This document shows, one piece after another, positions 2,601 to 60,339 of a stretch of DNA of 64,000 bases (its first letter is position 1; each line of letters starts with the position of its first letter). The stretch spans positions 152,171-216,170 of the forward strand of contig JAODTK010004121.1 in assembly GCA_026419785.1 (NCBI GenBank), in the 5' to 3' direction. The stretch is from Sclerodactyla briareus (Eukaryota > Echinodermata > Holothuroidea > Dendrochirotida > Sclerodactylidae). Made by a program: the position numbers and the translations under genes. Under the pieces are notes generated by a model. It was not told where the DNA came from and searched no databases. It saw nothing but the letters and a program-made list of their open reading frames with translations.

Positions 2601-2817
2601 TGACTTGTGAAGAGTATCGAACGAGCCGTATGTGCTGCTGATATTGGGTCCTCGTGGCCAGATGAATGACGTACGATATGGTTGCGTCAGGAGAGAACAG
2701 GCGAAGGTGCGTGCTGTAGGTACGGGTGTGCCAAGTCCCTAGATCAGGGTATTCTGTAAAGCGCTTGACATTCTTCGACTGGAAAACGCTATATAGAACG
2801 AGATATTATGATAGTTA

Positions 2818-3060
2818 TTACCGGGGCGGGGCGCCACAGGAGGGGCAGGGTGCGGCTTCCCCCCCCCCCCCACATGGGTTTTGGGCCGAAAAAATAAAAG
2901 CGACAGAATGACGTTTTAATGCACACATTTTCATCAGGGTGGGTTTTGAATGTCAAAATACGTTATCCAAGTTAGGTTATTTTCTATTCGTTCTCATCGA
3001 GACTCAATCGAGACTCAAACTGTTGAAATTTTACCATGAATCCGTTGCTTGTGCACTCAC
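2818..3060 (+). mobile_element. Family B element, 5' portion
   Basis: Matches the left end of the roughly 1.75-kb element at 13,030. Shared blocks are GGGGC(T)GCGCCACAGG, a G/C-run, a TTTGGGCCGAAAAAA-like block, TTTAATGCACACATTTTC, and TTATCCAA(G/C)TTAG followed by TTTTCTATTCG. The match fades near 3,060. A 3' part of the same family is found at 4,560-4,900, so the original element may have been split by later insertion, including the inverted hairpin-family element at 3.55-4.17 kb. Confidence 0.65.
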
Positions 3061-3544
3061 CAAAACTTATAGAAACTTGTTTCATATTCCGGTTTGCGAC
3101 CACTAGCCAAACAGCTGTACACGGTGGACTAGACAGAGAGAGGTCCATTCGCGGGACACGCTACGATATGAACTGAAAGACCAACATCCAACATATGATT
3201 TGAGGGTGATCAGGATCGGAGTTCAGGGGATGGGACACGGCCTAGGTGGGTGCGTGCCTTTTATAATAGTAAGTACTATGTAATACAATCTATGTCTTTT
3301 ATGAAAAGAAGAAGTTTGTCACGGAACGCTTTTAATTTATCCTTTTTTTTTTTTTTTCCACACGCACTCGCTTTAAGTTATGAAAGTCCTGCAAACCCAA
3401 GGGTGGCCGCTTGTGGGGATGTGCGAGTGTGACACTAAGTCAACCATGCAGTTTTTTAACTACTATTTCAAAAGGACTGAAACAAGAAAAGGGGCAAGAA
3501 GAGAGCCTTAGAGGAGGGACTATGGTTGACTTGACCATTGGCCC

Positions 3545-4170
3545 CGAGCGTCGTTATAAATTCCTCACTTCGGGATATTATGTTTTGCCTTCTTTGTGTT
3601 CCGCCGCTCCGCGGCCGCCGCCGCCCGCTCCACCGACGCCGCCGCGTCCCCGCCGCCGCGTCCGCCGCGCGTAAGAATGTTCGCGTTAGCGCGATAACTT
3701 TCTTCTAGATTGGATGCATCACACAGGAGTGTACAACTTTTACAAAAACCGCATGTATGGAAAGGTCATTAAGGTCACGTCAGGGTCAGAAACGATTTTA
3801 ATAACTTGTTTGGCAATAGCCCTGGGCGTTTTAGCAAAATGCAAAATGCTCTGAGGAGTGAATGTATCACATGGGTAGCTTACAATTCATGAAACCTGCC
3901 ATGTCATTAAAGGTCATTCAGTCACTTAGGGGTCAAAAATGTTTTTCTGCCGTAATCGAGATTGAATATCTGTGAAGCTGGAGGTTCACCATTGTGATAT
4001 AATTGTTGACCTGCATGTGTGTGACCTCGACTGCATTCCGACCTTCCCCCCTGTCGTTGGGTCATGTGGTTAAAGTTTGAGTCTTGATAAATGGTTGCTT
4101 ATTTAAGGAGTTAACGGGCAAAAAAATAGAAACGGTTATTGGCAAATGGGAATATACACGTTGGCGGTCT
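3545..4170 (-). mobile_element. Hairpin-terminus modular element (family A), single 590-bp-type unit
   Basis: Reading the minus strand: a segment equal to part of one internal unit of the 39-44 kb arrays (CATATCC..AATAACCGTTTCTATTTTTTTGCCCG, then the 'TGACCCCTAAGTGACC' zone), then GCGCTAACGCG, then a GC-rich (CGG)n stretch (3,600-3,672). It ends in GGCAAAACATAATATCCCGAA, the family terminus. Here unit and terminus join without the roughly 870-bp tail present at 40.6-41.46 kb. The GC-rich part creates a spurious Arg/Pro-rich reading frame. Confidence 0.6.
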
Positions 4171-4559
4171 ATGCCAGGCGGTTCTAGTTATGTCGGTGTT
4201 GACTATGAATGCTCCAATTTGTTGCAATGTACCACTCTAAAAAAATATGTTACTTTTATTGTGTTACTCCAAATGAGTGATCTGGGGGCATACTATGGCA
4301 GTATGGGATGTCCCCCCCTTTCAAAAGATCATTTGGAGTAATTTTACCCAACCATGTTTTTTTTTAGTGTACGGCTGAAGGAGTGGAAAATATCAGTTTT
4401 TGTCAGCTTGATATATTGTGGATATTCTGGTTGAGACTGCTTCTAATTGCTTTTCCCTGAGTGATTCTATTTGGAATACAGAAAAATTAACCAACACTGG
4501 TCTTTTTTTATTATTTTACCACCATCTTTAGCATACAATGCATGCATTTTTTTCTAAAA

Positions 4560-11380: not shown

Positions 11381-11384
11381 TGTA

Positions 11385-11545
11385 CATGTGTGCCAAGTTA
11401 CGGATCAATCGGATGAAGCTTGAAGAATTATTGCGCTAACACGACATCTTTATGCGCAAAGGTGGTGCGGACGCAGTTGCCGGCGGCAACGCGGCCGCGT
11501 TACGACGAAGGCAAAACCATAATATCCCCGAAGTCACAATTATGT
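11385..11545 (+). repeat. Family A terminus, solitary fragment
   Basis: ACGGATCAATCGGATGAAGC, then ATTGCGCTAACACG, a GC-rich GCCGGCGGCAACGCGGCC block and GGCAAAACCATAATATCCCC. The order is the one seen at 27,410-27,570 and 41,320-41,455. The terminal hairpin is only half preserved (CCCCGAAGT...). No internal repeat units are attached. Confidence 0.6.
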
Positions 11546-20859: not shown

Positions 20860-21780
20860 AATTATAGGGATTTTCCTATGGTGATCTGAAACGACCTTGA
20901 CCTAACATCAAAAACCAATAGGGTTCATCCTCACCATACTGCACCCACCTACCTGATATAACTTGAATACATGCTTGTCGTTCGCTCTATTATCGTGCTG
21001 ACAGCTTTTCAAGTTTGCCCTCTGGTGACTTTTTTGGAATACCTTGAACTCAAAAACAATAGGGGTCATCCGCTATATGTTTAACACCCGTATTTAATTT
21101 TTGGACTTCATACATGCTTGCGTTCGATAGATTCGCTGCTGACAAGGGGTGGTCACACACCACCACAGACACACCATCTTAGTTATTGTGGATAACGAGG
21201 TAGTGTGTTTTTTTACCTAACCAACGAAGGAACGTACTTATTTCCATATCCACTGCGTTTCCCTCCATCAGCCAGGAGACACACCCTTCACATGGCCACG
21301 GAGGTAAGCCTATACCTCAAAAGCTACTACGCGAACGAGGTACTGTAAAATTTAATTAATGCAAAACGAAGTGGTAAGCGTGCGGAGACTTTTCACCGAC
21401 TAACCGGGAATTTGCTCAAATGATCTGATCGAGTTTCCGCGATAGTGGATGGTGCAGATCGCGCCCTCAATGTCCCTTTATTCTAACGAGGTATTTCCCT
21501 GTCGTTGTCATGGTTGCCCCTCGATTGGCGGTGTAAAACCCCTCATGTGTTAACTTCGGTGTTTATCCACCATTTAACAACCAACCCCCCCTCCCCCCCT
21601 CCCCACCACACACACGCGACACTGGCCAGACTGCATCGATTCCTAAACTTCGTCAAGGAATAAAAATACAAGCATCCCCATAACGCCTTCTAGGTTTAAC
21701 TGGACATGTGCAGACGGGTTAACCCCCAACGTGCTATCCCCGCTAAAAAGCCCTCATGGACTTCGTTTTTAGAGATAAAC
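20860..21780. other. No gene recognised
   Basis: Diverged TGACCT-type repeat material near 20,880-21,080 (TGACCTAACATCAAAAACCAATAGGG and TGACTTTTTTGGAATACCTTGAAC, both followed by GGTTCATCC/GTCATCC and 'ATACATGCTTG.CGTTCG'), forming two diverged units about 170 bp apart. No gene elsewhere in the interval. Confidence 0.45.
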
Positions 21781-21789
21781 ACGCACATT

Positions 21790-21888
21790 ACTTAATGGGA
21801 ATTTTGACCTCTGGTGACTTAGAAATGCGTACCTGGTGTTTAGGACCAACTGTAGTCCGCATCTCCCCATGTTTTCAGTTGACCTCCT
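21790..21888 (+). repeat. Single TGACCT-type unit (family A body)
   Basis: TTGACCTCTGGTGAC..TAGAAATG, then GACCAACTGTAGTCC.CAT and CCCCATGTTTT, as in 27,580-27,660. It is cut at TTGACCTCCTG by the family C-like element that starts CATGGGCGTCGATC. Confidence 0.65.
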
Positions 21889-22040
21889 GCATGGGCGTCG
21901 ATCTGGGGGGAACAGGGGGCCACGTCCCCCCCCCCCGCACTTTTATCGAAGTGGGGGAACATCATATCAAATGTCCCCCATTTTTGATCCTCGATGAAGA
22001 CCGAATTACATGTCCGTTTACACACACGTTAAGTGGCTAG
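21889..22040 (+). repeat. Family C/D-type element end
   Basis: Begins CATGGGCGTCGATC, then G-run, GTCCCC.., CGCACTTTTATCGAAGTGGGGG. The start is the exact reverse complement of the end of the family D copy at 26,985-26,998. Confidence 0.6.
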
Positions 22041-26489: not shown

Positions 26490-26998
26490 GGACCCCAGAG
26501 GAAGATCTCGACCCCACTAGGGGTTCCAGATCTTCATCACTGACTTTTTCGATAAAATGCCCGGAAAACTGCAGAAAATTCCGCGCGCTTCGCGCGCGCT
26601 GGTAGTCTTCGATGACAATTGGAATGGTCCCGGGGGTACGCCTATGGCTTCTCCCTTCAATCCCACCAAGGACCGTTGGGCAGACCCCTGGATCCCACGC
26701 AAACGATCGAAGCCAGAGTTAGCAAAAGGTACAAACAAATCCATGTGTGATATGCGTTAAATCATCTTAGTATTCACAATGACACTTTTTTTTTGTCTGT
26801 CTCTTAATCAAATCACACATGTAGATGGGTGCTATCGAGTCTGGCAATTGCCGTTTCCAGCGATCTAGGGGGTATAAAAATCTAAAATTTTCTTTGTACA
26901 CTTCGCGCCAACCAATGGTGGCGCTCGCTTAGATGGTCATTTGCATTCGATGCCCCCCCCCCCCCCACTTTTCAAAACGGATCGACGCCCATGACCTC
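26490..26998 (+). mobile_element. Family D element with intact right end
   Basis: Shared with 17,610-18,250: TTTTTCGATAAAATG, CCGCGCGCTTCGCGCGCGCTGG hairpin, ATTGGAATGGTCCC..TACGCC, CCGTTTCC.GCGATCTAGG, TTCTTTGTACACTTCGCGCC, AATGGTGGCGCTCGCTTAGAT. It then has a C-run and ends CACTTTTCAAAACGGATCGACGCCCATG. The middle differs from the other copies. It abuts a TGACCT-type tandem repeat at ACCTCCTG. Confidence 0.65.
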
Positions 26999-26999
26999 C

Positions 27000-27575
27000 T
27001 GTGACCCTGAAATGACCTCATGTTTGTGTAGGTCTAACATCAGTCCACATCCACTAAGTATTGTTTAAACCCAACGGAGTTCAGAGAATCGTGGAAAAAC
27101 CAAATGTGACCTCTGGTGACCTTGAAATCACCGTCATGTTATTCGGGACCAATGTTTTCCCTCACCGACCAAACTCAGTGTAAATCGGATTCCTTTGTAA
27201 TTTTGCAAAAAAAAACGCACAAATTTGATCTCTGGTGCCCTTGAAATCACCGTCATGTTTTTTGGACAACTTTAATCCCACCCACTAAGTTTAGTGTGAA
27301 TCGGATGAACTTATCTGTATTTTAGTGTAAACCTGCAAAATAGAGGGCGGCAGGCATGCAGTGATGCCCACCCTCAAACTCATTCGAGATTTCACTAGGG
27401 CGGACATGTGTTCCAATTTTCAGACAATCAGATGAAGTGTTAGAGTCATCGCGCTAACGGCTAAAGTTTCCGGCGGCGGCGGCAGCGGCCGTGGCGGTGG
27501 GGACCCCGGCTACACCACCGAAACCATAATATCCCCGAACACTTGAAAGTGTTGCGGGGATATGATTATGTATTG
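27000..27575 (+). mobile_element. Family A element with ~116-bp internal repeats and hairpin end
   Basis: Tandem units of about 116 bp start with TTTGACCTCTGGTGACCTTG (27,001; 27,115; 27,229). They continue AAATCACCGTCATGTT..TTGGGACCAA, then CC.ACTAAGTTT.GTGTAAATCGGA. The end zone is GCAAAATAGAGGGCGGCA, GAGATTTCACTAGGGCGG, CAATCAGATGAAGTGTTAGAG, GCGCTAACGGCTAAAGTTTC, CGG-rich block (27,470-27,500) and a CCCCGAACACTTGAAAGTGTT(G)CGGGG hairpin (27,532-27,561). No ORF. A second set of units follows to 28,092, where LINE 2 interrupts it. Confidence 0.7.
27532..27562. other. Terminal hairpin of family A (best copy)
   Basis: ATCCCCGAACACTT and AAGTGTT(G)CGGGGAT form an inverted repeat with a 2-base loop, an almost perfect stem of about 13 bp with one bulged G. 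The same hairpin occurs degraded at 41,425-41,450, 45,150-45,185 and, inverted, at 57,892-57,912. Confidence 0.8.
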
Positions 27576-28092
27576 TGTCTATTTGACCTCCAGTGACCAT
27601 GAAATGCCCTACTCGTTGTTCAGGTCCAACTGTAGTCCACATTCCCCATGTTTTGTTTAATACGACAGAAGTTAAAAAATTACATGATTTAGGCAAATTT
27701 GACTTTCTGTGACCTTCAATGACTTCATGTGTTTAGGACCAACAGCAGTTTTGTTCAAATCAGACGAAAAAATTGCGAAAAACACCAATTGACCTCTGAT
27801 GACCTAGAAAGCAATGTCTTGTTATTTGGGACAAACTTTTTGTCCCCACCCACAAAGTTTCGTTTGAATCGGACTTATCTGTATATTGCAAAATGAAAAA
27901 CACATGCACACACACATTTGACCTCCAGTGACCTTGAAATCACTGTCATATTTTTCGGGACCAACTTTTTTTCCCACCCTCCAAGTTCCGCGTGAACCGG
28001 ATATACTCAGTATTTTTCGTGTAAAACTTGCAAAATAGGGGCAACCTGCATACAGTGATGACCACTTTCGAACTATCCGAGATTTCACTAGG
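27576..28092 (+). repeat. Second TGACCT-type array, cut by LINE 2
   Basis: Units begin TTGACCTCCAGTGACCATGAAATG (27,580), TTTGACTTTCTGTGACCTTC (27,700), AATTGACCTCTGATGACC (27,788) and TTTGACCTCCAGTGACCTTG (27,916). The last ends in TGCAAAATAGGGGCAACC and GAGATTTCACTAGGGCGG (28,079-28,096). The GC-rich hairpin end expected next is missing because LINE 2 starts there. Confidence 0.7.
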
Positions 28093-28265
28093 GCGGTGCA
28101 TGGGACCTCTATCGCAGTGAGGAGCTCTATTTCATCTATGGAAGTCAATCCTACGAACAGTGACAATGAGCTTGTCTGATCAAAGTGGATAATACCAATA
28201 GCGAGTCCCCAGTTTATGTTGGCGCCTTTTAAAGGCCACCAGGCTGCAGTGACAGTTATGTTGAA

Positions 28266-28560
28266 GTGCTCAAGCAGTCTCTTAACAATCTACCGACCAA
28301 TTGCAGTATAATTTTATATGGGGATTTTAACCTTCCCGACATTGAGGGTTCAATAACTCTTTTATCAGCTGTGGTCGTTACCCGTCTCCAAGCAAGATGT
28401 TACTTGATGCTACGCATGACTTCAACTTCTCAATCTCAAATGGTCCAACCCCCAACTAGAGGAAATTCCATTCTGGACCCCTGTCTAACAAATAGGCCAG
28501 ATGCTATACAGAATGTTCAAGTCAAAGATTGAATCAGTGATCATGATATCGTAGTCTTTA
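28266..28560 (+). pseudogene. LINE 2 endonuclease fragment
   Basis: The 88-codon frame covers LKQSLNNLPTNCSIILYGDFNLPDI; after a small shift it gives the 'LDPCLTNRPDAIQNV' segment, and in the next frame SDHDIVVF. These are the Asp-Asn and terminal Ser-Asp-His motifs of LINE APE endonucleases. The reading frame breaks just before SDH. Confidence 0.75.
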
Positions 28561-29549
28561 GTGCCGTTGTCCACCCCACACATACCAGACTTGGTCGTCG
28601 GAAAATCTATCTGTTTTCAAAGGGCAACTATGATGATGTTTCCCAACGCTTACAACAGTTTTATAATCAAGCCTTCTCTGAACTACCGGAGTCTACATGG
28701 TCTGCATGGTTACTTTTTAAACTTTTAAACAAGAGTTGTTCTTGCCATTGATAATTTTATTCCAAGCGAAATGTCTTCATCCAATTTCCATACCCATGGA
28801 TTGATGCTAGTCTACGTCGTCGAGTAAGGAAAAAGCAACGCCTTTATATCAAAGCAAAGCGATCATTAAATCCAGATAATCAGTCAGCATTCAGAAGTTT
28901 CGTAGAAATCTGGAAAGAGCATCAGGATTGCTTACAATTGTACCTTCAGAATATCATTTGCAGCAGTTGACAGTAACAATACCAAGCCTTTTTGGAAGTT
29001 TTATAAATCTAAGCGTAATCACCATTCAGCATCAAGACAACTTGCAGTCACCTCCGCTATTGGGAAAGCCGAACAGCCTAATGAATATTTTTGTTCCGTA
29101 ATTCAACAAAAGAGAATACTGATTCACTGCCGTCTCTACCCACCCCCGTTGTGAGTCAGTTTTTTCATATCTGATTTGAATATTTTGGAACAGGGTGTGC
29201 AGAAACTTTTGGATGAACTCAATGTGAATAAATCCTGTGGGCCAGATGTATTATTTCACCATATGTTCTGAGAATGTGTTCAACCACCATCGCTCCGTTT
29301 CTAACAATCATTATCAAAAGTCAACCAACTTCGGACAGCTGTCTCAGGATTGGAACACGGCCGTGGTAACACATACATACCAACATACCTTAGAAGAAGA
29401 AAAATACAGGGCGCCCAGTTTCGCCTCACCCTATTCCAGGCAAAAGTGTTATTGGAACACATCATCCACCACCATCTATGAGATATTTGAATCGTCATCG
29501 TCATCAGCTTATGACAAATGTTCAACATGGTTTTTGGACAGAATCACTC

Positions 29550-30190
29550 CTGGTAAACTCCAATGGCTATGACCATCAACGATCTGGCTAGAAGCTTGGA
29601 CTGTAAAGCTCAAACTGATGTAGTGATTACAGATTTCAGCAAAGCTTTCGACAAGGTGCCACATAAGGGTCTGGCCTACAAGCTCCAACACTATGGTATT
29701 TCTGGTAAGATCCTCATATGGATAAAGGCTTTTTGAATCACCGTACCCAGTGTGTTTTTTATCGATGGTTGGACATCGCATATCAACAACATTGTTTGTA
29801 AAGCCTCCAAAGTTCTCGGATTGATCGGTAGACATCTTCACGACTGTGATATCAAAACTAAAGTTACTGCTTATCAATCGCTTGTTCGTCCCTGTTGGAA
29901 TATGCCCTCTTTAGTTTTGGGATCCCTACAAAGCATGTAACATTTACAAACTGGAACTGGTTCAGCTACTTGCGGCTGTGGTACTGGGAGATCAGCTCGC
30001 TTTGTTGGAAAGCCTCGTCGATCACCAGTGTAACAGCCCTTCTTCAACAGCTTGGCTTGCCTAAGCTGCAGGAGAGGAGGCGGGATTCACGACTCAAGCT
30101 TTTCTACAAATCAGTTATCAGGTGGCTCTCCCAGTACCAGACTTTGTCGAGTCGACTAATCATCATTCAAGATCTTCATTAGCCAATGGC
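29550..30190 (+). pseudogene. LINE 2 reverse transcriptase and C-terminal remnants
   Basis: TDVVITDFSKAFDKVPHKGL carries the palm motif A Asp. YKLQHYGISGKILIWI follows. Then comes the internal deletion described for LINE 2. KASKVLGLIGRHLHDCDIKTKVTAYQSLVRP is the conserved post-RT segment. The region to 30,190 has mixed frames of the C-terminal domain. Confidence 0.75.
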
Positions 30191-30589: not shown

Positions 30590-30830
30590 TTGGGTGTTTA
30601 CATAGTGAACAACAAGACAAGCAATCCTTTATATAATCTTGGTAACGGAACATTTTAGAGGGATGTCGTTATGGAAAGTTTTGTTCGTCTGGGCGAACTA
30701 CATATGGTGACCTACTTCGACCTCATTTGACCTTTTGACTTCGTTTGACCTTGTGACATTGAGTGCTAATTTTTTGGTGATGACCAACTCGTTTTGTTGA
30801 GTCAAACCATAAAGTGAATTAGACTCGAAG
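30590..30830 (+). repeat. Family F, plus-strand copy
   Basis: TCTTGGTAACGGAACATTTTAGAGGG, then ATGGAAAGTTTTGTTCGTCT, GGCGAACTACAT, and TCGACCTCATTTGACCTTTTGAC. Matches 20,500-20,840 inverted and 33,350-33,520 directly. Confidence 0.65.
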
Positions 30831-30834
30831 TAGT

Positions 30835-31960
30835 CTCGTCACAGATTAGGTTGTTTGCCGATGATGCCTTGCTCTATCGGCAAATTGATTCCTCCAATGA
30901 TCAAATTCTCTTGCAATCGGATCTTTATTGTTTAGCCAAATGGTCTTGTGACTGGTGTATGGAATTCGATCCAAATAAGTGTTGTGTTCTCACTACAACT
31001 TTGAAAAGTAAACCTTATAGATTTACTTATAATTTTGTTAGGACATAATCTTGATTCTGTGAAATCTCCCAGTTACGCTTAGTGTATTCTAAGCTTTCGT
31101 GTTCTCCCTCATTAATTAACATGAGCAGAGGCTAATACGTTCCTGAATTTTCTTTCTCGTAATTTGGGGTATAAACTGCTCCTCCCCCCAAATTTATTAG
31201 GAAAAGGCATATCTTATTTATGTCCGTCCTCAGTTGGAGTATGCCTCCCCAATTTGGTCTCCACAAACTATTACTGGCAAGAGAAAACTTGAAGAATATC
31301 CAATCTAGGGCTGGCAGATTTGTCACTGGCCGTCACAAGCGCTCTGAAAGTCTTACTGACATTATGTCAACTTTGTGTTGCCCCGCTTGAATGTACACGT
31401 ATATTACATCTTTATACTGTCATAAAATCATCCATGACAACTTGTAGTTCCTTCTCAAAACATTTTTGTTCCACACACTAGTCCTACTAGAACTAACACT
31501 AAGTCGTTTCAAAAATATTACCGTGCAACGGGTGGTCTGCTGGCACATCCTACTCCCCAAAACATTTCCAGGTGGAGCAAGCTCCCCCCAGACTAGCCCA
31601 ATTGGATATTGAAAACACATTCAAGAGGGCAATTTCCACTGGTGCCGGCCATCAATAGGTTTCTCTGCACACTCGGCCTACCCTCCATCGAATGCCTGTT
31701 GAGGGCGCATTGGAGTAATCGTACAAGAACAGAACAAACTAATGTGATGCAACAACCTCCCATCACGAGCTACGTCAAGTAACGCACATTGTGAAGGGTC
31801 AACAAAAACCTAAACACTGGGATGATGTAAAACGTTTGACGTTTGACATCTTGGCAATACCACATTTTAGGGATTTAAGATGTTGTAATTCGTTTCGTCA
31901 AGCCAACTGAAGTGGTTTCGCTTTGCATGGAAGCCTACATATCGTTTTGAACTTATGTAT
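30835..31960 (+). mobile_element. LINE 3: 5'-truncated non-LTR retrotransposon
   Basis: Begins within reverse transcriptase palm motif C: LFADDALLYRQIDSSND (from 30,846), with the catalytic Asp pair intact. A 65-codon frame continues to CMEFDPNKCCVL. Beyond it, in alternating frames, come LSRNLGYK, RPQLEYA-like (about 31,228), KNIQSRAGRFVTGRHKRSES (about 31,291) and a C-terminal tail. The C-terminal block corresponds to the KASKVLGLIGRHL block of LINE 2 but is clearly different, so this is a separate family. The 3' boundary near 31,960 is approximate. Confidence 0.8.
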
Positions 31961-38740: not shown

Positions 38741-41455
38741 AACTAGAAAGTGTCGGGCGGGTCAACCGCCAAGACGTATCTTTCCCCGCATCTCTTATTC
38801 CAGACATTTGGTGAACATGACACAGGACAATATTGTGGAAGAACATTTAGACTTGTGAAGCGACCAAGTGTACTGCGTAAATGGGTCACCATAATGCACT
38901 TGTTAATTATTTGAGGCACCCCTATAGCCCGGACAAGGTGCGTCCATTAAATAAGCACATTTTTCAAGATCGCGACCTTTAACCACATGGGCACACCCGA
39001 AGGGTCAAATTCAGGTCAGAGGTCACACACAGGCAGGTCAACAATTAGAGCACATGGTGAACCATCCAGCCTTCGCAGATATCAATTCTCCGATTATAGC
39101 CCAGAAAAACAGTTTTTGACCCCTAAGTGACCTGAATGACCTTAATTGAGAGGCAGTTTTATGAAATGTTACCTCAATGTGATACCATCCACTCCTAGGA
39201 GCATTGTGCATTATGATGAACACACCCAGTGCTATTGCCGAAAAAGTACAAAATCAGTTTTTGAACCCTAAGGACCTTTAGGACCTCCAATGACAAGCGG
39301 TTTTTATGAAAAATGTTACACTACATGTGATGCATTCACACCAGAAGCATATTGCGTTCCAATGATCATGTCCACTGTTATTGCGCAAAAGGTATAAAAT
39401 TGAACTTTACCCCTTGTAACTACCAAAGTAAAGTGTCTGATCGAAGCGGGAGTGTTTCTCTCCAGGAAAGCACATAAAGCTCAATCACATATCCAACAAT
39501 AACCAGTTTCTATTTTTTTGCCCGAACTCCTTAATAAGCCACATTTATTCAAGATTCGCCCTTCACCAACATGAACACCCGACAGAGGTCAAATTCATGT
39601 CAGAGGACCAACATGGAGGTCAACAATTAAATCAAAATGATGGTGAACCAACCAGCCGTCGCAGATATTCAATTCTCCGGTTTATAGCCAAAAAAACCGT
39701 TTTGGACCTTAAGGACCCTGAATGACCTTTAAGATATGAAGTTTTAGAGACTGTTACCTATCCATGTGATCATCATCATAGGAGCATTTTGCATTCTGAT
39801 GAACACACCCGTGCTATTGCCGCGAAAAAGTACTAAAATCAGTTTTGACATAAGTGACCTTTAATACCTGCAGACATGGCATTTTTATGAAAAATTTACC
39901 TCCATGTGATGCATCCACTCATAGAAGCATATTGTGGCATTCCAATGAACAGTCCAAGTTATTGCGAAAAAAAAGGTATAAAGTGAACTTGACCACTTGT
40001 AAACTACCCCAAAGTAGGTCCGATCAAAAGGGGATTTTGTTTTCCCTCATAAAGCACACAAAGCTCTATCCCATATCCAAAATAACCAGTTCTACTTTTT
40101 TTGCCCGTAACTCTTAAATAAGCACATTATTCAAGATCCGACCTTTAACCACATGACCACCGACAGAGAGAGGTCAAATCAGGTCGAGGTCCACACAATG
40201 GAGGTGAAACAAGTATAAATCAACAATGTGTGAACTCTTTTCAACCGTCGCAGATATTCAATTCTCCGATTATAGCCAAAAAACAGTTTGTGACCCTTAA
40301 GTGACCAGAATGAAAAAACCCTTTTTTTGAATTTTTGGGGGGGGATATGACAGTTTTTGGAGAATTGGTAATCCCATTGGGATACTCCACTCCTAGGAGC
40401 ATTTTGCAGTTGAGGAAACACCCACTGTATTGCCGAAAAAAAGTACTGAAATCAGTTTTTGACCCCTAAGTGACCTTTAAATGAACTTCAAGACATGGCG
40501 GTTGTTTTATGAAAATGTGACACTCCATGTGATGCATCCACTCCTAGTCGCATATTGCATTCCAATGAACATGTCCCATGTTATTCGAAAAAAGTATTAA
40601 AACTCATCATTTTGACTGATCAGGACAACTAATATGGAAAATAGTCCCACAATGCCGCAGTGATATTGATGCTATTGAATTAAAGTTATCAGGACTGGTA
40701 GTAGCGGGTCCTATTTCACAAAGTTTCGTCAAAAATCCCTAAAAGTTGAAGAAACTAATTGAAGTAATGAGTCTATATGCTAACGAATATCTTTTGTTGA
40801 ATAACCCAAAAATAATGACCTTCAGTGATTTCAATGCCAATGGAATAAATTTACGGGAAGTTAGCAAGGTCCTTACTGAAAAGTTCGTGAGAATCCCAAC
40901 GGAAGTTTTATAAATTTGTCTATTGAATTGGGCCAATAGTATGCAATTAGTCATGCAAGATGACTCCAGTGACCTCGGCGACATTGGGAAAATTCATCTG
41001 CACTTATAGTTGGCCCTAGTCACCAAGTGTCATGAGAATCCAATGAAGTTTGAAAGATACATATCATTCTGCTATTGCTATAATTCGGCTACTGGCCAAA
41101 AAAAAAAAAATGCAAATTGACCTCGGATGACTTTAGACCCCAATGTCACCAGTTTTTCGGCCCAACAAATACCCAACAACCACCCACGTTTCGTGGTAAA
41201 TCGCACAAACTTGAAAATTTTGCGGAAAAACATGCAAAATAGAGCGGCAACAAAAATTATACGATATAGCCCATTTTCGAACGTATACGAGATTTACTCA
41301 TACGGGACATGTGTCACAAGTTGGGTCCATCGGATAAAGTGTTAGAGAATGAGAGCGCTAACGCCTAAAGGTTTCCGGCAGCGGCGGCGGAGGAGACGCG
41401 GGCACACGGCCAAAAACATAATATCCCCGAACACTTACAGTGTTGGGGGTATAAA
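38741..41455 (+). mobile_element. Family A long element, copy 1 (three 590-bp units)
   Basis: The header starts AACTAGAAAGTGTCGG-CGGGT-AACCGCC and runs through ATTCCAGA.ATTTGG.GAACA, GACTTGTGAAGCGAC and CCCGGACAAGGTGCG. Three tandem units of about 584 bp follow, starting AATAAGCACATT at about 38,952, 39,535 and 40,119. A tail of about 870 bp (40,594-41,455) has TCATCATTTTGACTGATCAGG, TTGACCTCGGATGACTTTAG, GCAAAATAGAG.GGCAAC, CGAACGTATACGAGATTT, a GCGCTAACGCC zone, CGGCGG block and a CCCCGAACACTTACAGTGTT hairpin. Copy 2 follows directly in the same orientation. No ORF or transposase is seen. Confidence 0.8.
38952..40593 (+). repeat. Tandem array, about 584-bp unit, three copies
   Basis: Each unit reads AATAAGCACATTTATTCAAGATTCGACC, CCGACAGAGGTCAAATTCAGGTCAGAGGTCACACACATGGAGGTCAACAATTA-type cluster, GATATTCAATTCTCCGATTATAGCC, two halves with TTTTTGACCCCTAAGTGACC followed by CTCC.TGTGAT.CATCCACTCCTAG.AGCAT.TTGCATT, and a CATATCCAAAATAACCAGTTTCT end. 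The halves are about 170 bp apart and partly similar, so each unit is itself an old duplication. The last unit is truncated. Confidence 0.85.
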
Positions 41456-41864
41456 TATAACACAGCCTAACACACACACTGCAGTGCGGTACCCGGTTGT
41501 ACTAAGTATAGGCCTACACGGTGCAATCTTTAGATAGGCAACAAAAAATCTACGTAATGGCTATTTTTTTTTATTCTATCTTTTTGATAGTGAAATGGGT
41601 AGAATTTATTTTTGCTAAATCAAATTACGACATCATCTTTTATCCTCCCCACTTTAAAAAAAAGACGGTCAATAGTCACCATCAAAGTGCTGTGTAGTTA
41701 CTTTCCAGGACTTTCGCATTGATACGTGTTAGGTTTAGGCGGTATTAAATATACAGTACGTATGGGGATGGGAGTTTGGTTATTTGTGTGATCATTTATT
41801 GCCTTTCGTACTACGACAATCACCATTGGAAAAAACCTTACGTATTGAAATTAGTTCAGAGTAA
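41456..41864. other. Spacer between the two long family A copies
   Basis: About 410 bp of AT-rich sequence without a gene. It has no counterpart at the matching position beside copy 1 or copy 2, so the two copies are probably separate insertions or an old duplication with its own spacer. Confidence 0.5.
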
Positions 41865-44800
41865 AACTAGAAAATGTCGGCGGGGTAAACCGCCAGAAGT
41901 ATATATCCCCGCATCCTTATTCCAGAAATTTGGAGTGAACAGTGAAAAACAGGACAATATTAGTGGAAAGAAGACACTTATAGACTTGTGAAGCGACAAA
42001 CGTGTACTGGTAAAATGGGTTCATTACAGAAGCACTGTAATTGGAGGAGGCATCCCTACAGACCCGGACAAGGTGCGGTCCCAATAAGCACATTATTCAA
42101 AGATTCGACCTTTAACCACATGGCACCCGACAGAGGTCAAATTCAGGTCAGAAGGTCACACACATGAGGTCAACAATTATATACACAATGGTGAAACCAT
42201 CAGCCTCGCAGATATCAATCTCCGCGTGTAGCAAAAAAACAGTTTTTGACCCCTAAGTGACCTCGAATGACTTTAATGATATGGCCGTTTTTATGAAAAT
42301 TGTTACGCCTCCATGGGATAAAATACATCCTAGGCATTTTGCGTCTGATGAACACCCCAGTGCTATGACGAAAAGTACTAAAATCAGTTTTGAGCCCTAA
42401 GTGACCTTTAACCTTCAATGACATGCGGTTTTTATGAAAATTGGTACAAATCCATGTGATGCATCACTCCAAGAAGGCATATTGCATTCCATGGGAACAT
42501 CATGTTCAATGTTATTGCAAAAAAGGTATATATAAAATTGAAAATGGACCCTTGTAACTACCAAAGTAAAGTGTCTGATCGACTAAGCGGGAGGTTGTTT
42601 TCTCCATAAAAGACACAAAGTCAATACATATCCCAAAAATTAACCGTTTCTATTTTTTTGCCCGTAACTCCTCAAATAAAGCACATTATTCAAGGATTCG
42701 ACCTTCACACACATGACCACCGACAGAGGTCAACTTAAGGTCAGAGGTCACACACATGCCCGGCAACAAGTATATCACAATGGTTAACATTCCAGGCCTT
42801 AGGCAGATATCCAAGTCACGATATAGCCAAAAACAGTTTTTGACCCCTAAGTGACCCCCCAAATGACCTTTAATGATATGACAGATTTTTTTGAAAGTTG
42901 TTCCTCTCCATGTGATACATCACTCCTAGGAGCATTTTGCATTCTGATGGACAAAAAAACCACCCTCTATTGCCGGAAAAAGTACTAAAATCCAGTTTTG
43001 ACCCCTAAGTGCCTTATGAACTTCCCAATGACATGCTGTTTTTATGAAAATTGTAACTCCATGTGATGCATCACTCATAGGAGCATATTGCATCCAATGA
43101 ACATGTCCAATGTTATGCGAAAAAGGTATAAAATGAACTTTACCACTTGTAACTACCAAAGTAAAGTGTCTGATCGAAGGGGAGTGTTTTCTCTCCATAA
43201 AGCCACACAAAGCTCAATCAAATATCCAAGAATAAACAGTTTCATTTTCTGCCCGTTAACTCCTAAATAAGCACATTTATTCAAGATTCGACCTTCACCA
43301 CAATGACCAACGAAGAGGTCAAATCAGGTCAATGGTCACACACATGCAGGTCAACCCAATATATCACAAATGGTGAAAGCATCCAAGCCTTCGCAGATAT
43401 CCCAATTCACCGATTATAGCCAAAAAAACAGTTTTTGACCCCTAAGGACCCCAATGACTTCATGATATGCAGTGTTTTATGAGAAGTTACTCTCCATGTG
43501 ATACATCCACTCCTAGCCTAGGAGCATTTTGCATTTCTGATGAACACACCCCCAGTGCTATGCGGAAAAAGTACTAAAATCAGTTTTGACCCCTAAGTGA
43601 TAGCTTTAATGACCTCAAGACAGGGCGGTTTTTATGAAAAATGTTACACTCAATGTGATTCATCCACTCCTAGAAGCATATTGCATTTCCATGAAACATG
43701 TCCAATGTATTGTGAAAAAGTATAAAATTTAACTCTGACCCCTTGAAACTACCAAAGTAAGTGTACGATCGAGGCGGGAGTAGTTGGTGCCCGCATAAAG
43801 CACACAAAGCTCTACACATATCCAAAAAAATAACCAGTTTCATAATTTTTTTGGCCAGTAATCCTTAAATAGGCACATTTATTCAAGATAGATTCGACCT
43901 TAACACAGGACAACCCGACAGAGGTCAAATTCAGGTCAGAGGTCACACACATGGAGGTCAACAATTAATCACAATGGTGAACATCCAGCCTGGCGCAGAT
44001 ATTCAATTCTCCGATTATAGCCCAGAAAACGTTTTGACCCTTAGTGACCCGAAGACCTTTAATGATATGACAGATATTATGAGAATTGTGACTTCATGTG
44101 ATTACATCACTCATAGGAGCACTGTTGCATTCTGATGAACACACCAGTGCTATTGCCGAAAAAAAGTACTAAAATCAGTTTTTGACCCCTAAGTGACCTT
44201 TATGACCTTCAAGACATGGCCGGTTTTTATGAAACTTGTTACACTCCATGGTGATGCATCAACTCCTAGAAGCATATTGCATTCCATAACATGGCCAATG
44301 TTATTGCGAAAAAAAAAAGGTATTAACTCATCATTTTGACTGATCAGGAAACATATGCAAATTAGTCACAAATTTTACCCTCAGTGATCTGATGATATTG
44401 AATAATGTATCAGCCTGTAGTAGGTCCTATTCACAAAGTTTCGTCACAATCACTAAAAGTTGAGAAAATAATTGTTTGTTCCAGTAATTATTCTAATTAT
44501 GCTAACGAATATGTGAAATTAAACAACACATAATGACCTTCAGTGATTTCAAGCAATTGAATAATATCGGGAAGGTTTGAAGGGTCCTACTCACCAAGTT
44601 CGTGAGGGAATCCAACAACGTTTATAATTTGCCCTTATTGCTAATTGGGCCAAACTATAGCAAATTAGTCATGCAAGAGACCTCGGGTGACGCGGCCACA
44701 TTAGGAACATCATCGCATGAAGTTGGCCATAGCACCAGTTGCATGAAAATCATGAGTTTGAAAGATCACATACATTCTGCTATAATTAGGCTACTGCGCC

Positions 44801-45195
44801 AGAATAAAATGAAAACTTGACCTCGGATGACTTGACATGTCACCAGTTTTTCGGGCTTCCAACAATAACCAAACCATTCACTGGTTCGGTAAAAGCGCTC
44901 CACGAACTTGAAAATTTTGCGGAAAACCTGCACAATAGAGGGCAACAAAATATCCACGATATAGCCCATTTTCGAACTTATCCGAGGATTTGCATAATAC
45001 GCACATGGTAACAAGTTTGGGTACAATCTTGGAAAATGTTAAAACAGATATGAGAGAGCCCCGCCGACGCCTAAAGTTCCCCCGGCGGCGGGCGGAGCAC
45101 CCCGGCGGCCGGCGGAGACAGCGAGCGCCGGACCACGGCCCAACACAATCTTTCCCGCCCCACACACTCTACCAGTGTTCGCGGGCGACTATAAC
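41865..45195 (+). mobile_element. Family A long element, copy 2 (four 590-bp units)
   Basis: The same header (AACTAGAAAATGTCGGCGGGGTAAACCGCC..) is at 41,865-42,075. Units start at about 42,085, 42,678, 43,268 and 43,870, with periods near 593, 590 and 602. The tail (44,330-45,195) repeats copy 1's tail and ends in a GC-rich block (45,058-45,130) and a degraded hairpin (CCCGCCCCACACACTCTACCAGTGTTCGCGGG). It differs from copy 1 by unit number and many indels; no ORF. Confidence 0.8.
42085..44330 (+). repeat. Tandem array, about 595-bp unit, four copies
   Basis: Same unit as the 38.95-40.59 kb array. Indels between units are frequent and mostly 1-2 bases, often in homopolymers, resembling raw long-read error more than ordinary divergence. 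Confidence 0.85.
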
Positions 45196-47309: not shown

Positions 47310-47840
47310 GCCGATTATGATGAAATTTGTGTGTAGCACCGGTTGGGTGTACACGATCTTGAGTAGATTTTGAGCAGCAAAGTCAGTATTCAGTTGGGTA
47401 ATTAGCTTATTTTATGTAATTTATGTTAAAGCTCGTTAGAAGATTACGTAAGAACTGAATGTGCTACAGTGATGTTTGGCATGTAGGATCCGGATGGACT
47501 GGTAGATGAACGATGAGATTTCCACCTGGAAATGCTAAAATAAGTGTCTAATTGCATAATTTATGCCAAATTTTACAAGTTGTCGGATTTGAGCGAAAAT
47601 TGGTGGATGTGGTCTACAGGTTCCCGAGAAATTTAAAAGCGGAGTCCAGGGTCACTGGAGGTCATTAATGTTCTAATTTGCATATTTTAGCTTTTTTGAA
47701 AGTTCGTAGGATTTCCACAAAAAAATTGGTAGATGATGTTCCGCCTTTGACCCAATCATTTGAAGGTATAGCTGGGGTCAGTAGAAGTCATGTATGTGCT
47801 AATTTGCATAATATATTCCAATTGCCAGCTTGGTAAGATT
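47310..47840 (+). repeat. Family G: GCATAATTTATGC / TTGGTGGATG quasi-tandem repeat
   Basis: Degenerate units of about 125 bp: TAATTGCATAATTTATGCC, TTGTCGGATTTGAGCGAAAATTGGTGGATG, CGAGAAATTTAAAAGC, GTCACTGGAGGTCAT. Units start near 47,400, 47,545, 47,675 and 47,800. Related units occur at 48,630-48,715, 53,170-53,235, 56,070-56,370 and 58,060-58,380, mostly inside introns of the Y-box gene. Confidence 0.65.
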
Positions 47841-57700: not shown

Positions 57701-60339
57701 ATTAGTGTGTTATGAGCAGGGCAATTGTTTAAAAAATATCTATCTGTGGGAAGGTAAGCATTTAAATGTATTTCCACGAAACTAATCAGTCCAGAGAAGA
57801 AGAAACCTGCTCCTTGTACAGGTTAGTGGGTGGGTGGGCCAGTTAGTGTTTCCATTAGATTGGCCTCCTAAAATCATGAATTGATAATTATATCCCGCGT
57901 GTCAAGGGATATTATGGTTTTGGGTGATTAGCCGCTGTCAAAGGCTCCGCCGCCGGAAACTTTAGGCGTTGCGCAATAACTCTTCAACGCTTTATCCGAT
58001 TGATCTAGTGAAATCTCAGATGAATTCGAAAGTGGGCATCACTGCAATGCTGGGGCCGCTAAATTGCCTAATTTATGCGAGATTCTCAAGTTAGTCGGAT
58101 CTGAACGAAACTGGTGGGTAGGGACTATAGTTGATCCCGAAAAATGTGGAAGTTATTTCAAGGTCATTGGAGGTCGAAATTTGCGAAAAAATTTATGCGA
58201 TTTCCCAAACTTGTCAGATTTGAACGAACTTGGTGGCTGGGGGCTACATTTGTTCCTCATAAAAAATTAGAAGTCATTTCAAAGGCCATCATGGGTCAAA
58301 TTTGCATAATTCATGTGCCTATAAACTTCCATGGATTACAAAAAAACTTGGTGGATGAAGTTTATCTTGGTTTCCGACCAAAATGGGGGTCTTTATGGGG
58401 TGTTAGTTACTTCTCACAAATGATTGCTCAAAAGCGAGGATATACACGTGAGCGGTTCACCAGCCTACACATGTCCAGTTGGTTCTTGAGAAAGGTGACA
58501 GGACAGTGATTGCAATACTGCCAGTTGTGCTCTTCTTGAAGTAAGATGAGCAGTCCATTGCTCTAGATCAGATAGTCTACTTCTCCCCTAATCTCGCATA
58601 CTTCCAAACGCCCCTTCTATTTGGCCTATTAGTGCTTTCTTCTGGCAATTCTACCTAGATAAGATATTCAGGTTCGAAGTAATTTATAGACATACAATAA
58701 CTTCTTCCACCTTCTCTGAACCAACAGGGCGAGCCCATGAGGGGGAGAGGCAGGGTGATCGCGATGGGCCCCGGAGGAATGGGTCCCTACCGTCGCCGGC
58801 TACCCGCAACAACCGGCCACTGAGGGCGACGAGAACAAGGAGAACCAGGCCGTAAACGGGGCGGCGGACGAGGACAAGCCCTACCAGCCAAGATACCGTC
58901 GCCGACAGCGACACACTGAGGGTGAGAACTTATCTTTTTTTCCAAACCTGTACGTAATTCACTGCAGAAACTCCAGTTGACACAAATTATATTTTCTTCT
59001 TCAAGAGAAAACAAGTGTAGCTCCCCTAACATTTCACTCAAAATGTGTATTCTGTTTTGACAACTGATTCATTTTGATTTCTTAATGCTTTGAAATGGAG
59101 TTTCATTTGTCGCAAAGGTATTTCGTTCACAGAAAGTACACTTATATTACGCAAGCAGCCCTCCCAAACATCTTTGCTAATTTCACATGTTTTCATATTT
59201 CGAAAATATTGTTAATCTAATTTATTGTTAATTTAACGAAACTGTTAACTTGGCTAGTTCATTGGGGAACTTTCAGGTTGGGTTTCAAGGTCATTCATGA
59301 TAATCCAGTCGTTTCTCCTGACCCTTACCCTAATACAAATGAATATTTCACTTCTCATATTGATACATGCTCCAAAATGGCAGCCTCCTTGTATTCGTCA
59401 CTGAAATGAGTGTATTCAGAGAAAAAGTACATAGTGTGACTTTGGAGGGCTTTCCCACTTTTCTCGAATGTGGACATTGAATATTGGTTCTAAGCTTGGA
59501 CAAAACCTCAATGATGGATCACAGTATATATGGTGGATTACAGTTTGAAGAAATCTGACTTAATGGATTTGTGTGTATACGCACCTCAATTTTAGTCAAA
59601 TAAAAATTAATGAATATGTGCATTATGTAGGTACAGTTGTTTCCCGTATTAATCAATTGGGGAGCCTAGCATTGTTTATGCATGGGCATGAGAAATATAC
59701 ACGTTTCTCATAACTATGCAACATAGGGAAAAACATTATGTGACATTAGTGGTACTGCCTGTTATACACAGCAAAATATAGGCTGTCCCCTCATTTGGTA
59801 GAGCTCTGTCAGCAAGTGTGAGATGCAGGAGTATTTCCTTTTATCTATGATCCACTTGCCGCGCAGATTACGATCCTATCGAGGGCCCGGCAAAGTGTCA
59901 CACCTGAATGTTGGGCTTTTGATCCACCACCAGTTTCACAGATTAAGGCTATACTTAGAGCAGAACGTTATATTCAAGTGGTGGTAATCACAGGCGATGG
60001 TTAACTTTCCCTAACCCCTTGTTCTGGTTCCCTGCCAAGCCACTCAGCCCTATTTGTTATCAGTATGACCCCCCCAGGATTTTGAAACCTGAGTTTTACA
60101 GGTGTAGCCGACGTTCTGCCAACTGGTGTGCCAGCCAAATCTTTTGGGATGGGGGTGTGGGTGGGGGGGGTGGTCGAAGGTTATGATCGAATATTATATT
60201 ATTGTCACTCCCTACTACATGGTATCACTCCATTATTTCATTTCTCCCTCTGTAGGCCAGTGAAGGGAGCCAAGCCAAGGAGGGTGTGGCCAGCAGCGTA
60301 GAGCCAGCGGCCCAGGCCCCTGTAAACAGCGAGGAGTAG
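48731..60339 (+). CDS. Y-box binding protein (cold-shock domain), gene span of the exons found
   Basis: Seven coding exons in order give the diagnostic parts of a metazoan YBX protein. These are the CSD strand VYGLVKWFNVKNGYGF with the RNP1 motif, the DTQEDV..VHQ segment with RNP2, TAIAK and ETVEFDVVQGDK-type end of the CSD, NVTG..GSPVQGSKYAPDR, Arg/Tyr-rich islands alternating with acidic stretches (ENKENQ), and a C-terminus ending VNSEE*. YBX proteins bind single-stranded DNA and RNA, package mRNA and control translation, mainly in the cytoplasm. The exon layout, including the 32-34-nt exon 3, matches vertebrate YBX1. The first exon (variable N-terminus) was not found. Most exons contain 1-2-base indels, commonly in homopolymers, so no continuous frame exists. 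I judge assembly error likelier than pseudogene because splice sites and introns persist. Paralogue identity (YBX1/2/3) cannot be assigned. Confidence 0.85.
48796..50857 (+). other. YBX intron 2
   Basis: About 2.06 kb. It contains a 48,884-49,153 frame whose start (MNGRPFKQTNFLKNIQHVCC) resembles nothing I know, T-rich runs at 49,038-49,070, and no RNA gene. It ends with a good pyrimidine tract and acceptor TTCTCTCTATTCTTACAG at 50,857. Confidence 0.6.
50858..50889 (+). CDS. YBX exon 3: mini-exon with RNP2
   Basis: Reads (N)-D-T-Q-E-D-V-(F)-V-H-Q across 32 nt. GACGTATTGTCCATCAG lacks one T for the expected Phe codon, and the start GGATGAT appears to lack part of the Asn codon. Restoring two bases gives the 34-nt length conserved in vertebrate genes. 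V-F-V-H is RNP2 of the cold-shock domain. The donor reads CAG|TGAGTA, one G short of CAG|GTGAGTA. Confidence 0.85.
50890..54463 (+). other. YBX intron 3
   Basis: About 3.57 kb. It includes a C/G-run palindrome-like segment (51,588-51,640), two copies of an AGCCCGA/CTAGCCCG motif near 52,920-53,000, a G-rich CTGGTGCCGGTACCCCCGCC block (53,770-53,840), and family G material at 53,170-53,235. No coding exon of YBX and no other gene is seen. It ends in CTCTGTCTTTTGCAG. Confidence 0.55.
54464..54581 (+). CDS. YBX exon 4: C-terminal half of the cold-shock domain
   Basis: Starts ACGGCAATCGCCAAA (T-A-I-A-K) right after the acceptor. It continues with N-Q-N-L-R-R-T-S-G-E-G-E, comparable to the NNPRKYLRSVGDGE segment of other YBX proteins, and ends E-T-V-E-F-D-V-V-Q-G-D-K at the donor AAG|GTGAAG. 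The exon is 118 nt against about 90 in vertebrates. The excess lies in a G-rich stretch (about 54,518-54,545) between G-E-G-E and E-T-V-E-F, and could be a sequence error or an in-exon insertion. A one-base excess in GTTGTTTCAG breaks V-V-Q. Confidence 0.85.
54582..55588 (+). other. YBX intron 4
   Basis: About 1.0 kb, starting GTGAAG and ending CCCTTTTCCACCAG. No genes or clear repeats inside. Confidence 0.65.
55589..55734 (+). CDS. YBX exon 5: post-CSD segment and first basic island
   Basis: Encodes G-T-E-A-N-N-V-T-G.., then G-S-P-V-Q-G-S-K-Y-A-P-D-R followed by a run of arginines, F-M-Y-R-R-R. This is the sequence that follows the CSD in YBX proteins and starts the first basic/aromatic island. 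At least three one-base shifts occur (around 55,597, 55,611 and 55,660). The 3' end is uncertain; a weak G|GTGGAT donor at 55,734 is my choice. The minus-strand 81-codon frame here is a shadow. Confidence 0.8.
55735..57233 (+). other. YBX intron 5
   Basis: About 1.5 kb. Contains family G repeat units at 56,070-56,370 (TGCTAATTAACGGGATTTGG, GTCACTGGAGGTCAAAAT). The frame pair at 56,809-57,115 has no recognised motif. Ends in TGTCTCTCTTCTAG. Confidence 0.5.
57234..57357 (+). CDS. YBX exon 6: acidic and Arg/Tyr-rich tail
   Basis: After the acceptor CTTCTAG the sequence gives V-P-V-A-N-G, then G-T-D-G-G-D-K-T-G-G-K-E-D-A-A-R-R-R-R, and in the next frame G-Y-R-R-R-L-E-Y-R-P-R. The alternation of charged and Arg/Tyr clusters fits the YBX tail, but this region is poorly conserved, so the assignment rests on position and composition. 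The frame changes at the G-run 57,315-57,325. The donor was not clearly identified. Confidence 0.6.
57890..58060 (-). repeat. Family A terminus, inverted, inside YBX intron 6
   Basis: On the + strand: TTATATCCCGCGTGTCAAGGGATATTATGG (degraded hairpin), then GGCTCCGCCGCCGGAAACTTTAGGCGTTGCGC, TTTATCCGATTGATC, GTGAAATCTCAGATGAATTCGAAAGTGGGCATCACTGCA. This is the exact reverse order of the 27,340-27,560 end. Confidence 0.75.
58060..58385 (+). repeat. About 118-bp tandem units (family G type) joined to the family A terminus
   Basis: Units start TTGCCTAATTTATGCGAGATTC (58,064), TTTGCGAAAAAATTTATGCG (58,181) and TTTGCATAATTCATGTGCC (58,301). Each contains (C)GGATCTGAACGAAACTGGTGGGTAGGG and CATTTGTTCC-like blocks plus TTTCAAGGTCAT.GGAGGTC. 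They sit directly against the inverted terminus, showing that families A and G share one element architecture. Confidence 0.7.
58728..58921 (+). CDS. YBX exon 7: basic/aromatic and acidic tail islands
   Basis: First frame: G-E-P-M-R-G-R-G-R, then M-G-P-G-G-M-G-P-Y-R-R-R. After a one-base shift near 58,815-58,821: E-G-D-E-N-K-E-N-Q-A-V-N-G-A-A-D-E-D-K-P, then Y-Q-P-R-Y-R-R-R-Q-R-H-T-E. The E-N-K-E-N-Q stretch followed by P-R-Y-R-R-R parallels the vertebrate YBX1 tail (DKENQG...RYRRN). The donor CTGAGG|GTGAGA is strong. Minus-strand frames over this exon are shadows. Confidence 0.85.
58922..60255 (+). other. YBX intron 7
   Basis: 1.33 kb, GTGAGAACTT to CATTTCTCCCTCTGTAG. Contains a possible minus-strand tRNA-like segment (60,060-60,140). 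Confidence 0.65.
60060..60142 (-). repeat. tRNA-like segment (SINE head or tRNA pseudogene)
   Basis: On the minus strand TTGGCTGGCACACCAGTTGGCAGAACGTCGGC resembles an A-box region, and AGGTTTCAAAATCCTGGGGG a B-box with T-arm, about 40 bp later. The C-run/G-run makes the acceptor stem unreliable. Not a clean tRNA. Confidence 0.4.
60256..60339 (+). CDS. YBX last coding exon and stop
   Basis: Reads A-S-E-G-S-Q-A-K-E-G-V-A-S-S-V-E-P-A-A-Q then A-P-V-N-S-E-E and TAG, an open frame of 27 residues. The acidic, Ala/Ser/Pro-rich ending resembles the C-terminus of YBX proteins. The acceptor is CTCTGTAG at 60,255. The junction phase with exon 7 does not match as sequenced, presumably because of another small indel. 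Confidence 0.85.
   Translation, partial: ASEGSQAKEGVASSVEPAAQAPVNSEE

Follow-up and report, generated by a model that had tools for sequence, protein, structure and literature searches.

Two elements with repeat arrays of different length

The stretch analysed here (the window) comprises 64,000 nucleotides of the holothuroid Sclerodactyla briareus (assembly GCA_026419785.1, contig JAODTK010004121.1, positions 152,171 to 216,170, forward strand). BLAST and profile searches of the window place two elements head to tail, at about 38742-41458 and 41866-45193, which have their ends in common and enclose a central array of units of about 590 bp. They are referred to as copies 1 and 2 of the repeat family described here. 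An earlier interpretation based on the letters alone (the sequence-only reading) divided each copy into a 210-bp 'header', internal units and an 870-bp 'tail' with a GC-rich block and a hairpin. The parts of the two copies, with the element strand and its ends as assigned below, are as follows (subTIR, subterminal inverted repeat).

38742..41458, minus strand: copy 1, whole element, 2.77 units; 5' end at about 41458, 3' end CTAGT at 38742
38742..38795, minus strand: copy 1, 3' terminal module with altered subTIR, palindrome GGCGG..CCGCC and CTAGT (E 1.3e-16); start of the 'header'
38953..40601, minus strand: copy 1, array of 590-bp units, 2.77 units
40602..41417, minus strand: copy 1, body of the 5' module with diverged 119-bp monomers and GC-rich block; the 'tail'
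41418..41458, minus strand: copy 1, 5' hairpin formed by the subTIR and a complementary inverted repeat
41866..45193, minus strand: copy 2, whole element, 3.77 units; 3' CTAGT at 41866, 5' hairpin degraded and end approximate
42086..44326, minus strand: copy 2, array of 590-bp units, 3.77 units

Header and tail are indeed common to both copies, with 183 matches, 13 mismatches and 25 gap events in the header pair and 718 matches, 62 mismatches and 107 gap events in the tail pair. The proposed counts of three versus four units need to be replaced by 2.77 versus 3.77, i.e., one unit of difference and a fixed partial unit. In copy 1 the units start at 38953, 39537 and 40119 (partial), and in copy 2 at 42086, 42679, 43269 and 43871 (partial), the final unit being cut at position 451-452 of 590 in copies 1 and 2 alike. 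The direction assigned to the element was reversed: the GC-rich hairpin 'tail' corresponds to a Helentron 5' end, and the 'header' to the 3' end. Diverged 119-bp monomers make up the tail together with the GC-rich block and the hairpin, and a monomer profile built exclusively from other members in the window matches it at 41117-41237 (E 1.6e-7) and 44817-44927 (E 0.004), with weaker pieces besides. The 590-bp unit itself contains a duplication of about 170 bp with 80% identity. The flanks of copies 1 and 2, compared left with left and right with right, score no higher than shuffled flanks, and the reversed window gives no match to the header, tail-end or monomer profile.

Among 21 unit pairs, which are not independent, 1186 gap events were counted against 768 mismatches, and 935 of the gaps are of 1 bp; we infer an assembly rich in indels, like one of poorly polished long reads. 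The units of copies 1 and 2 differ by 6-9% in substitutions. Because this level is the same within one copy and between copies, it is probably an error floor from which the true divergence cannot be read.

A dispersed family with a ladder of unit numbers

When the 210-bp header was used as query against the whole assembly (319,486,128 bases in 3171 contigs), 831 first-look candidates were obtained, 40 of which were scored, copy 1 being among the scored places and copy 2 not. The other 39 scored places correspond to the 38 regions that were fetched (two lie in one region), some of them cut by contig ends. The header is present in these regions by construction, while the presence of the other end is independent. 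Both ends occur on one strand in 32 of the 38 fetched regions, and in copy 1. These yield 35 pairings, in which two 3' ends are each matched to two candidate 5' ends, and 33 distinct 3' ends. Six regions (L010, L011, L032, L038, L040 and L045) have no end pairing, the reason being a 5' end that was not found or is damaged, or a contig end; copy 2 remains unpaired under the stricter end profile owing to its degraded hairpin.

The unit number ranges from 0.45 to 7.75 in 32 fetched elements, and 24 of these fall on a ladder of n + ~0.77 units: six at ~0.77, six at ~1.77, seven at ~2.76 (one interrupted), two at ~3.77, and one each at 4.74, 5.75 and 7.75. Wherever the script could match the junction between the array and the 5' module (36 cases), it falls at unit position 440-460. 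The remaining eight elements are irregular. In one of them, L044 (1888-2857), the script had a choice of two 5' ends and paired the more distant one; behind the second 5' end, at 2857, units continue up to the point where another 5' end starts (1898). Both this arrangement and the one at 27570-28107 of the window are compatible with read-through or with insertion end to end, and recall tandem Helitron arrays. In L034, a larger composite unit, made of a partial 590-bp unit and part of the 5' module, is repeated at 398-3621.

The sequence-only reading had named two observations that would speak against a mobile element, copies without fixed ends and duplication that includes flanking sequence. 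Neither is seen: the fetched copies have fixed ends, the flanks of copies 1 and 2 are unrelated, and those of the listed elements are unrelated by eye, with L033 as the sole exception. This region has 3' ends at 401 and 5944, 5.5 kb apart and with flank in common, and local duplication seems to account for the spread of at least one copy.

Element ends and target site

Copies 1 and 2 lie on the minus strand. Read along the element strand, the 5' subTIR TATATCCCCGCA and its complement come first, followed by a block rich in CCG and by the diverged monomers of 119 bp. Downstream of the monomers is the array, and after it come the matching 3' repeat of 12 bp, a palindrome (GGCGG/CCGCC) and CTAGT. 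The end consensus, derived from the 25 of 39 5' ends and 32 of 40 3' ends that could be anchored, reads 5' AATTATATCCCCGCAACACTGTAAGTGTTCGGGGATATTATGG... and 3' ...GATGCGGGGATATATACGTCTGGCGGTTTACCCGCCCGACATTTTCTAGT; written on the element strand it begins, after T, with AATTATATCCCCGCAACACTGTAAGTGTTCGGGGATATTATGGTTTTGGCCGTGTGCCCGCCGTCTCCGC and ends with AGAGATGCGGGGATATATACGTCTGGCGGTTTACCCGCCCGACATTTTCTAGT. The longest exact inverted match between the consensus ends is TATATCCCCGCA, and a match of this length is reached in 2 of 5000 shuffles. At 12 bp in the consensus, the subTIR falls within the range of Helentrons and their non-autonomous derivatives (HINE), for which at least 11 identical bp are expected. 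It is located 3 nt from the 5' end, assuming an AATT start, and 36 nt from the 3' end.

The inverted repeat complementary to the 5' subTIR gives consensus hairpin arms TATATCCCCG and CGGGGATATTA. At the other end, the palindrome GGCGG-TTTAC-CCGCC lies 14 nt from the terminus and 9 nt upstream of CTAG in the 32-copy consensus. Both consensus ends form hairpins on folding (folds made without a shuffle control). About half of the 3' ends, including that of copy 1, carry GGGGAAAG rather than GGGGATAT, without the full repeat, and the base concerned is near 50%. Two variants of the 3' subTIR, GGGGATATATACG and GGGGAAAGATACG, occur in the fetched copies (L009-L046). For the pieces in the window, taken as all pairs, the mean inverted-match score is 13.3, compared with 9.2-12.0 in 12 displaced controls; this score is attained by 1 of 1000 random placements, and letter shuffles give at most 12.4 in 300.

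The CYAG-like 3' end is followed by T in all 38 anchored ends (2 of 40 could not be anchored) and by TT in 34 of the 38. On the 5' side, T is found two bases ahead of ATTATAT in 20 of 23 cases (P 1.5e-8); this test used 23 of the 35 pairings, the 12 others being dropped with the first consensus base unaligned. There is no signal of a target-site duplication in the 23 elements, with a mean exact match of 1.0 compared with 1.03 in shuffled pairings, and a check of eight other offsets, made without control, gave 0.4-1.1. The target-site pattern that the sequence-only reading proposed to obtain from aligned copies is, as far as these ends show, T on either side with no duplication signal, next to a 3' CTAG as in Helitrons.

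Coding content and search for an autonomous partner

Ten stop-free frames within copies 1 and 2 have no Pfam match above the cut-off and one below it (YkcB_C, E 0.034). Forty other frames of the window gave two weak matches, to retrotransposon families; the 50 scanned frames are a selection from the 164 window frames of at least 75 amino acids. Scans with the end motif of viral contigs and prokaryote genome contigs, collections that may omit close records, gave no hits, and neither did Rfam at gathering thresholds.

Helitron-like Rep sequence is found in the same genome as three matches on two contigs, here labelled C2413 and C2926.

C2413:103101-103668: Rep remnant with motif FQQRGSPHAHI, split over two reading frames (PF14214, E 2.8e-11 and 3.2e-9)
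C2926:127103-127219: Helitron-like Rep remnant

Rep sequence of the right superfamily is thus present in this genome. About 560 bp beyond the remnant on C2413 there is also a very weak endonuclease-like frame with GDFN (E 0.21).

Within the window, a broken non-long-terminal-repeat (non-LTR) retrotransposon lies at 28233-29733 on the plus strand, directly after 119-bp monomers ending at 28107. It contains an endonuclease match below the Pfam cut-off (E 9e-4) and, by eye, reverse-transcriptase-like frames, and a further weak reverse transcriptase match is located at 30818-31045. The endonuclease frame was considered as a Helentron endonuclease and dropped, since the frames downstream of it look like those of a non-LTR retrotransposon by eye.

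Comparison with known elements

The family was compared with elements described in excerpts of five publications (PMC4067079, PMC2374699, PMC7992393, PMC11136912 and PMC7492417). DINE-1 of Drosophila and Cg_HINE of Crassostrea gigas are laid out there as 5' subTIR, inverted repeat, microsatellite-like block, central repeats, 3' subTIR and palindrome, with a T-T target (PMC2374699, PMC7492417). The order of parts in the Sclerodactyla elements is that of these published non-autonomous Helentrons (HINE, DINE-1, Cg_HINE).

As in Cg_HINE, the 5' subTIR is accompanied by a complementary inverted repeat, a microsatellite-like block and a variable array resembling satellite DNA, and the 3' subTIR is followed by the palindrome; the target would likewise be T-rich or TT, with no sign of duplication (PMC7492417). 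The unit is however about 590 bp instead of mostly 140-180 bp, and the block is CCG-rich where several Cg_HINEs have a GTCY-type block (PMC7492417). Two other features set the family apart from Cg_HINE: a 5' module that contains diverged 119-bp monomers as a second type of repeat, and a CTAG 3' end. The resemblance to DINE-1 concerns the style of the subTIR (TATATCCCCGCA compared with, e.g., TATACCCTTGCAG in DINE-1), the partial inverted repeat beside it, the tandem block, the 3' stem-loop and the apparent preference for TT, as well as a variable number of central repeats (about 50-500 bp), and is thus one of layout; the GTCY block of DINE-1 is not seen here (PMC2374699). In HINE-Mo of Metaseiulus occidentalis, the subTIRs are 2-4 nt away from the terminus on the 5' side and 38-60 nt away on the 3' side, where the palindrome lies at a distance of 8-35 nt (PMC4067079). 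The corresponding distances here are 3, 36 and 14 nt, where 36 is just under the mite range and the 5' figure hinges on the first base. HINE-Mo differs in that its subTIRs are themselves palindromic, without an inverted repeat, and in that its partner Helentron is known (PMC4067079). Proto-Helentron-Pi, with a 3' CTAG end and no target duplication, resembles the family in its 3' CTAG and in the apparent lack of duplication here, but is autonomous, about 14 kb long, and inserts between A and T (PMC4067079).

The sequence-only reading had cited the pearl and Tsp elements as parallels. Pearl has been re-classified as a non-autonomous Helentron (PMC7492417); DINE-1-like elements of sea urchin and molluscs are mentioned in the excerpt of PMC4067079, and Tsp does not appear there under that name.

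Classification and alternative explanations

The family is very probably a non-autonomous Helentron-type (HINE) rolling-circle transposon. It has fixed ends, 12-bp consensus subTIRs with near-HINE spacing and a hairpin in each consensus end. T flanks it on either side without a duplication signal, the scanned frames show no coding content, and its central array varies in unit number while both junctions stay fixed. The Helentron-associated architecture recognised by the sequence-only reading, with fixed ends and variable central repeats, is retained.

Several observations weigh against this assignment. Within individual copies of the window, the subTIR matches are weak (7-8 bp or gapped). By stem score, the 5' hairpin is clearly above shuffles in four of six window pieces and the 3' palindrome in none of five. 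When folded, the 5' pieces give z values of -7.3, -3.0, -2.2, -1.4 and +1.3 relative to shuffles, and of four 3' ends one folds better (z -3.0), the others being at -1.0, -0.4 and +0.2. We think that the weakness of hairpins and subTIRs in the window is partly due to the indel-rich assembly. Directly after the 5' T, different bases occur (A 13, T 5, C 4 and G 1, n=23), which leaves the exact first base unsettled. No empty site is present among the sequence of the fetched regions; the two rows that spanned a site in this check are L041 and L042 matching themselves, and were taken as misplaced boundaries. An autonomous element with the same termini, which the sequence-only reading had suggested looking for, did not turn up, in that no family ends lie in the sequence surrounding the two Rep remnants (8.9 kb and 7.1 kb; best E 1). 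Finally, the CTAG 3' end resembles that of a Helitron and not that of a Helentron.

This last feature raises a less likely explanation, to which we give rather low credence, namely that the family is a strict non-autonomous Helitron or an intermediate between Helitrons and Helentrons (a proto-Helentron), whose 3' end would be CTAG with a hairpin 9 nt before it, in addition to subterminal repeats. The intermediate form overlaps the HINE assignment, and the probabilities given to the readings do not sum to one. The consensus end, GGCGGTTTACCCGCC-CGACATTTT-CTAG-T, with the T that follows in 38 of 38, agrees with this explanation, a CTAG preceded by a hairpin being what the CTRR rule of canonical Helitrons describes. 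A proto-Helentron with 5' TT, 3' CTAG and A/T insertion is known (PMC4067079), and among 751 intact oyster Helitrons located at host AT target sites, 257 are reported to have subTIRs (PMC7992393). The mixed end thus has precedent. Against this explanation stand the 5' consensus (A)ATTATATCCCC, which is without the canonical TC start, the 12-bp subTIRs and 5' inverted repeat, A ahead of ATTATAT in 13 of 23 elements, and the CCAG terminus of two related copies in the window. As to the insertion between A and T that is typical of canonical Helitrons, T lies downstream in 38 of 38 ends and A upstream in 13 of 23. In the orientation of the sequence-only reading, a canonical Helitron is ruled out, as there is neither a TC start nor a CTRR right after the tail hairpin. 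An intermediate lineage would pair subTIRs and T-T flanks in the Helentron style with the CTAG terminus of a Helitron. Its arrays would hold from less than one up to almost eight units of 590 bp, with junctions that stay fixed, and a single free base would separate the target T from the start of the element; we regard such a placement as tentative, and on balance doubtful.

A miniature inverted-repeat transposable element or fold-back element, mobilised by a cut-and-paste transposase, would likewise have inverted repeats near both ends, hairpins and no coding content in the scanned frames. It is nevertheless highly improbable, considering that the repeats are subterminal and at unequal distances (3 and 36 nt), with no signal of a target-site duplication. 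Segmental or tandem duplication, or a dispersed immobile satellite, which the head-to-tail placement of copies 1 and 2 and the flank common to the L033 pair of 3' ends might evoke, is practically discounted by 33 distinct elements at different places with common ends and listed flanks unrelated by eye, and for copies 1 and 2 segmental duplication is ruled out by their unrelated flanks.

As a Helentron-type transposon, the family looks like a new one of a known element type, with the Helitron-like 3' terminus as an unusual trait. No description of it was found in the literature searched, a search that lies apart from repeat libraries such as Repbase. It extends the set of genomes whose Helentron-type elements contain repeat arrays, here with longer units, a clear ladder and fixed junctions. 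The CTAG end bears on the relation of Helitron to Helentron termini, and annotators should not label such arrays as satellites or segmental duplications.

Proposed mechanism

Mobilisation would require a Rep/helicase protein from an autonomous relative, supplied in trans, which may nick at the CTAGT/T end. One strand would then be copied through the array and inserted at a T-T site, with the 3' palindrome possibly acting as the stop signal for copying. The array would be free to change size because it lies between the parts needed in cis, and could do so through slippage or through unequal recombination, either while the element is copied or later. The ladder allows one to ask whether resizing of the array accompanies rolling-circle copying or follows it. 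Small derivatives, which retain the ends together with a few 119-bp monomers, may be mobilised by the same means.

Related elements elsewhere in the window

The claim of the sequence-only reading that the GC-rich hairpin end recurs with different bodies is confirmed by three further matches. The first tail-end, unit and header profiles were built from copies 1 and 2 alone. With these, the tail end is found at 27366-27577 (E 5e-20) and 57898-58037 (E 7e-8), the unit at 3687-4093 (E 5e-72), and the header, weakly, at 58431-58492 (E 0.009) and 21693-21743 (E 0.4). Later four-copy and five-copy profiles, to which two members were added by eye, including the end at 3556-3605, place a header end at 21692-21744 (E 2.5e-7) and a tail end at 11381-11533 (E 5e-12). 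The following members were recognised.

3556..4188, plus strand: related element with similar ends (5' weak), one partial 590-bp unit and a long CCG block
11381..11545, minus strand: 5' end with GC block; no other family part found there
21699..21874, minus strand: 3' end (CCAGT) and part of one 119-bp monomer
26992..27570, minus strand: related element with the best preserved 5' hairpin of the window, GC block and three 119-bp monomers; 3' end not found
27582..28107, minus strand: 119-bp monomers abutting the 5' end of the preceding element; no ends found
57884..58479, plus strand: short element of about 0.6 kb with related ends (CCAGT) and 119-bp monomers, without the 590-bp unit

The unit in the element at 3556-4188 is 10-13% different from those of copies 1 and 2. 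Because the 3' end of the short element, the end at 21699 and the 5' end at 3571 reach only E 0.17-0.18 with the genome-wide end profiles, they are assigned to related subfamilies, separate from that of copies 1 and 2. A genome search with the short element gave 3053 first-look candidates, 40 of which were scored, and 33 of these 40 best rows start at query base 10-18, near the 3' end. The short element at 57884-58479 represents a large family in its own right.

An additional 119-bp monomer without recognised ends is located at 47553-47664 on the minus strand (E 1e-13), continuing more weakly to 47863. At 21886-21960 and 26950-26995, a repeat containing GATCGACGCCCATG next to a long C/G run directly adjoins family members, by eye, and its orientation is opposite at the two places.

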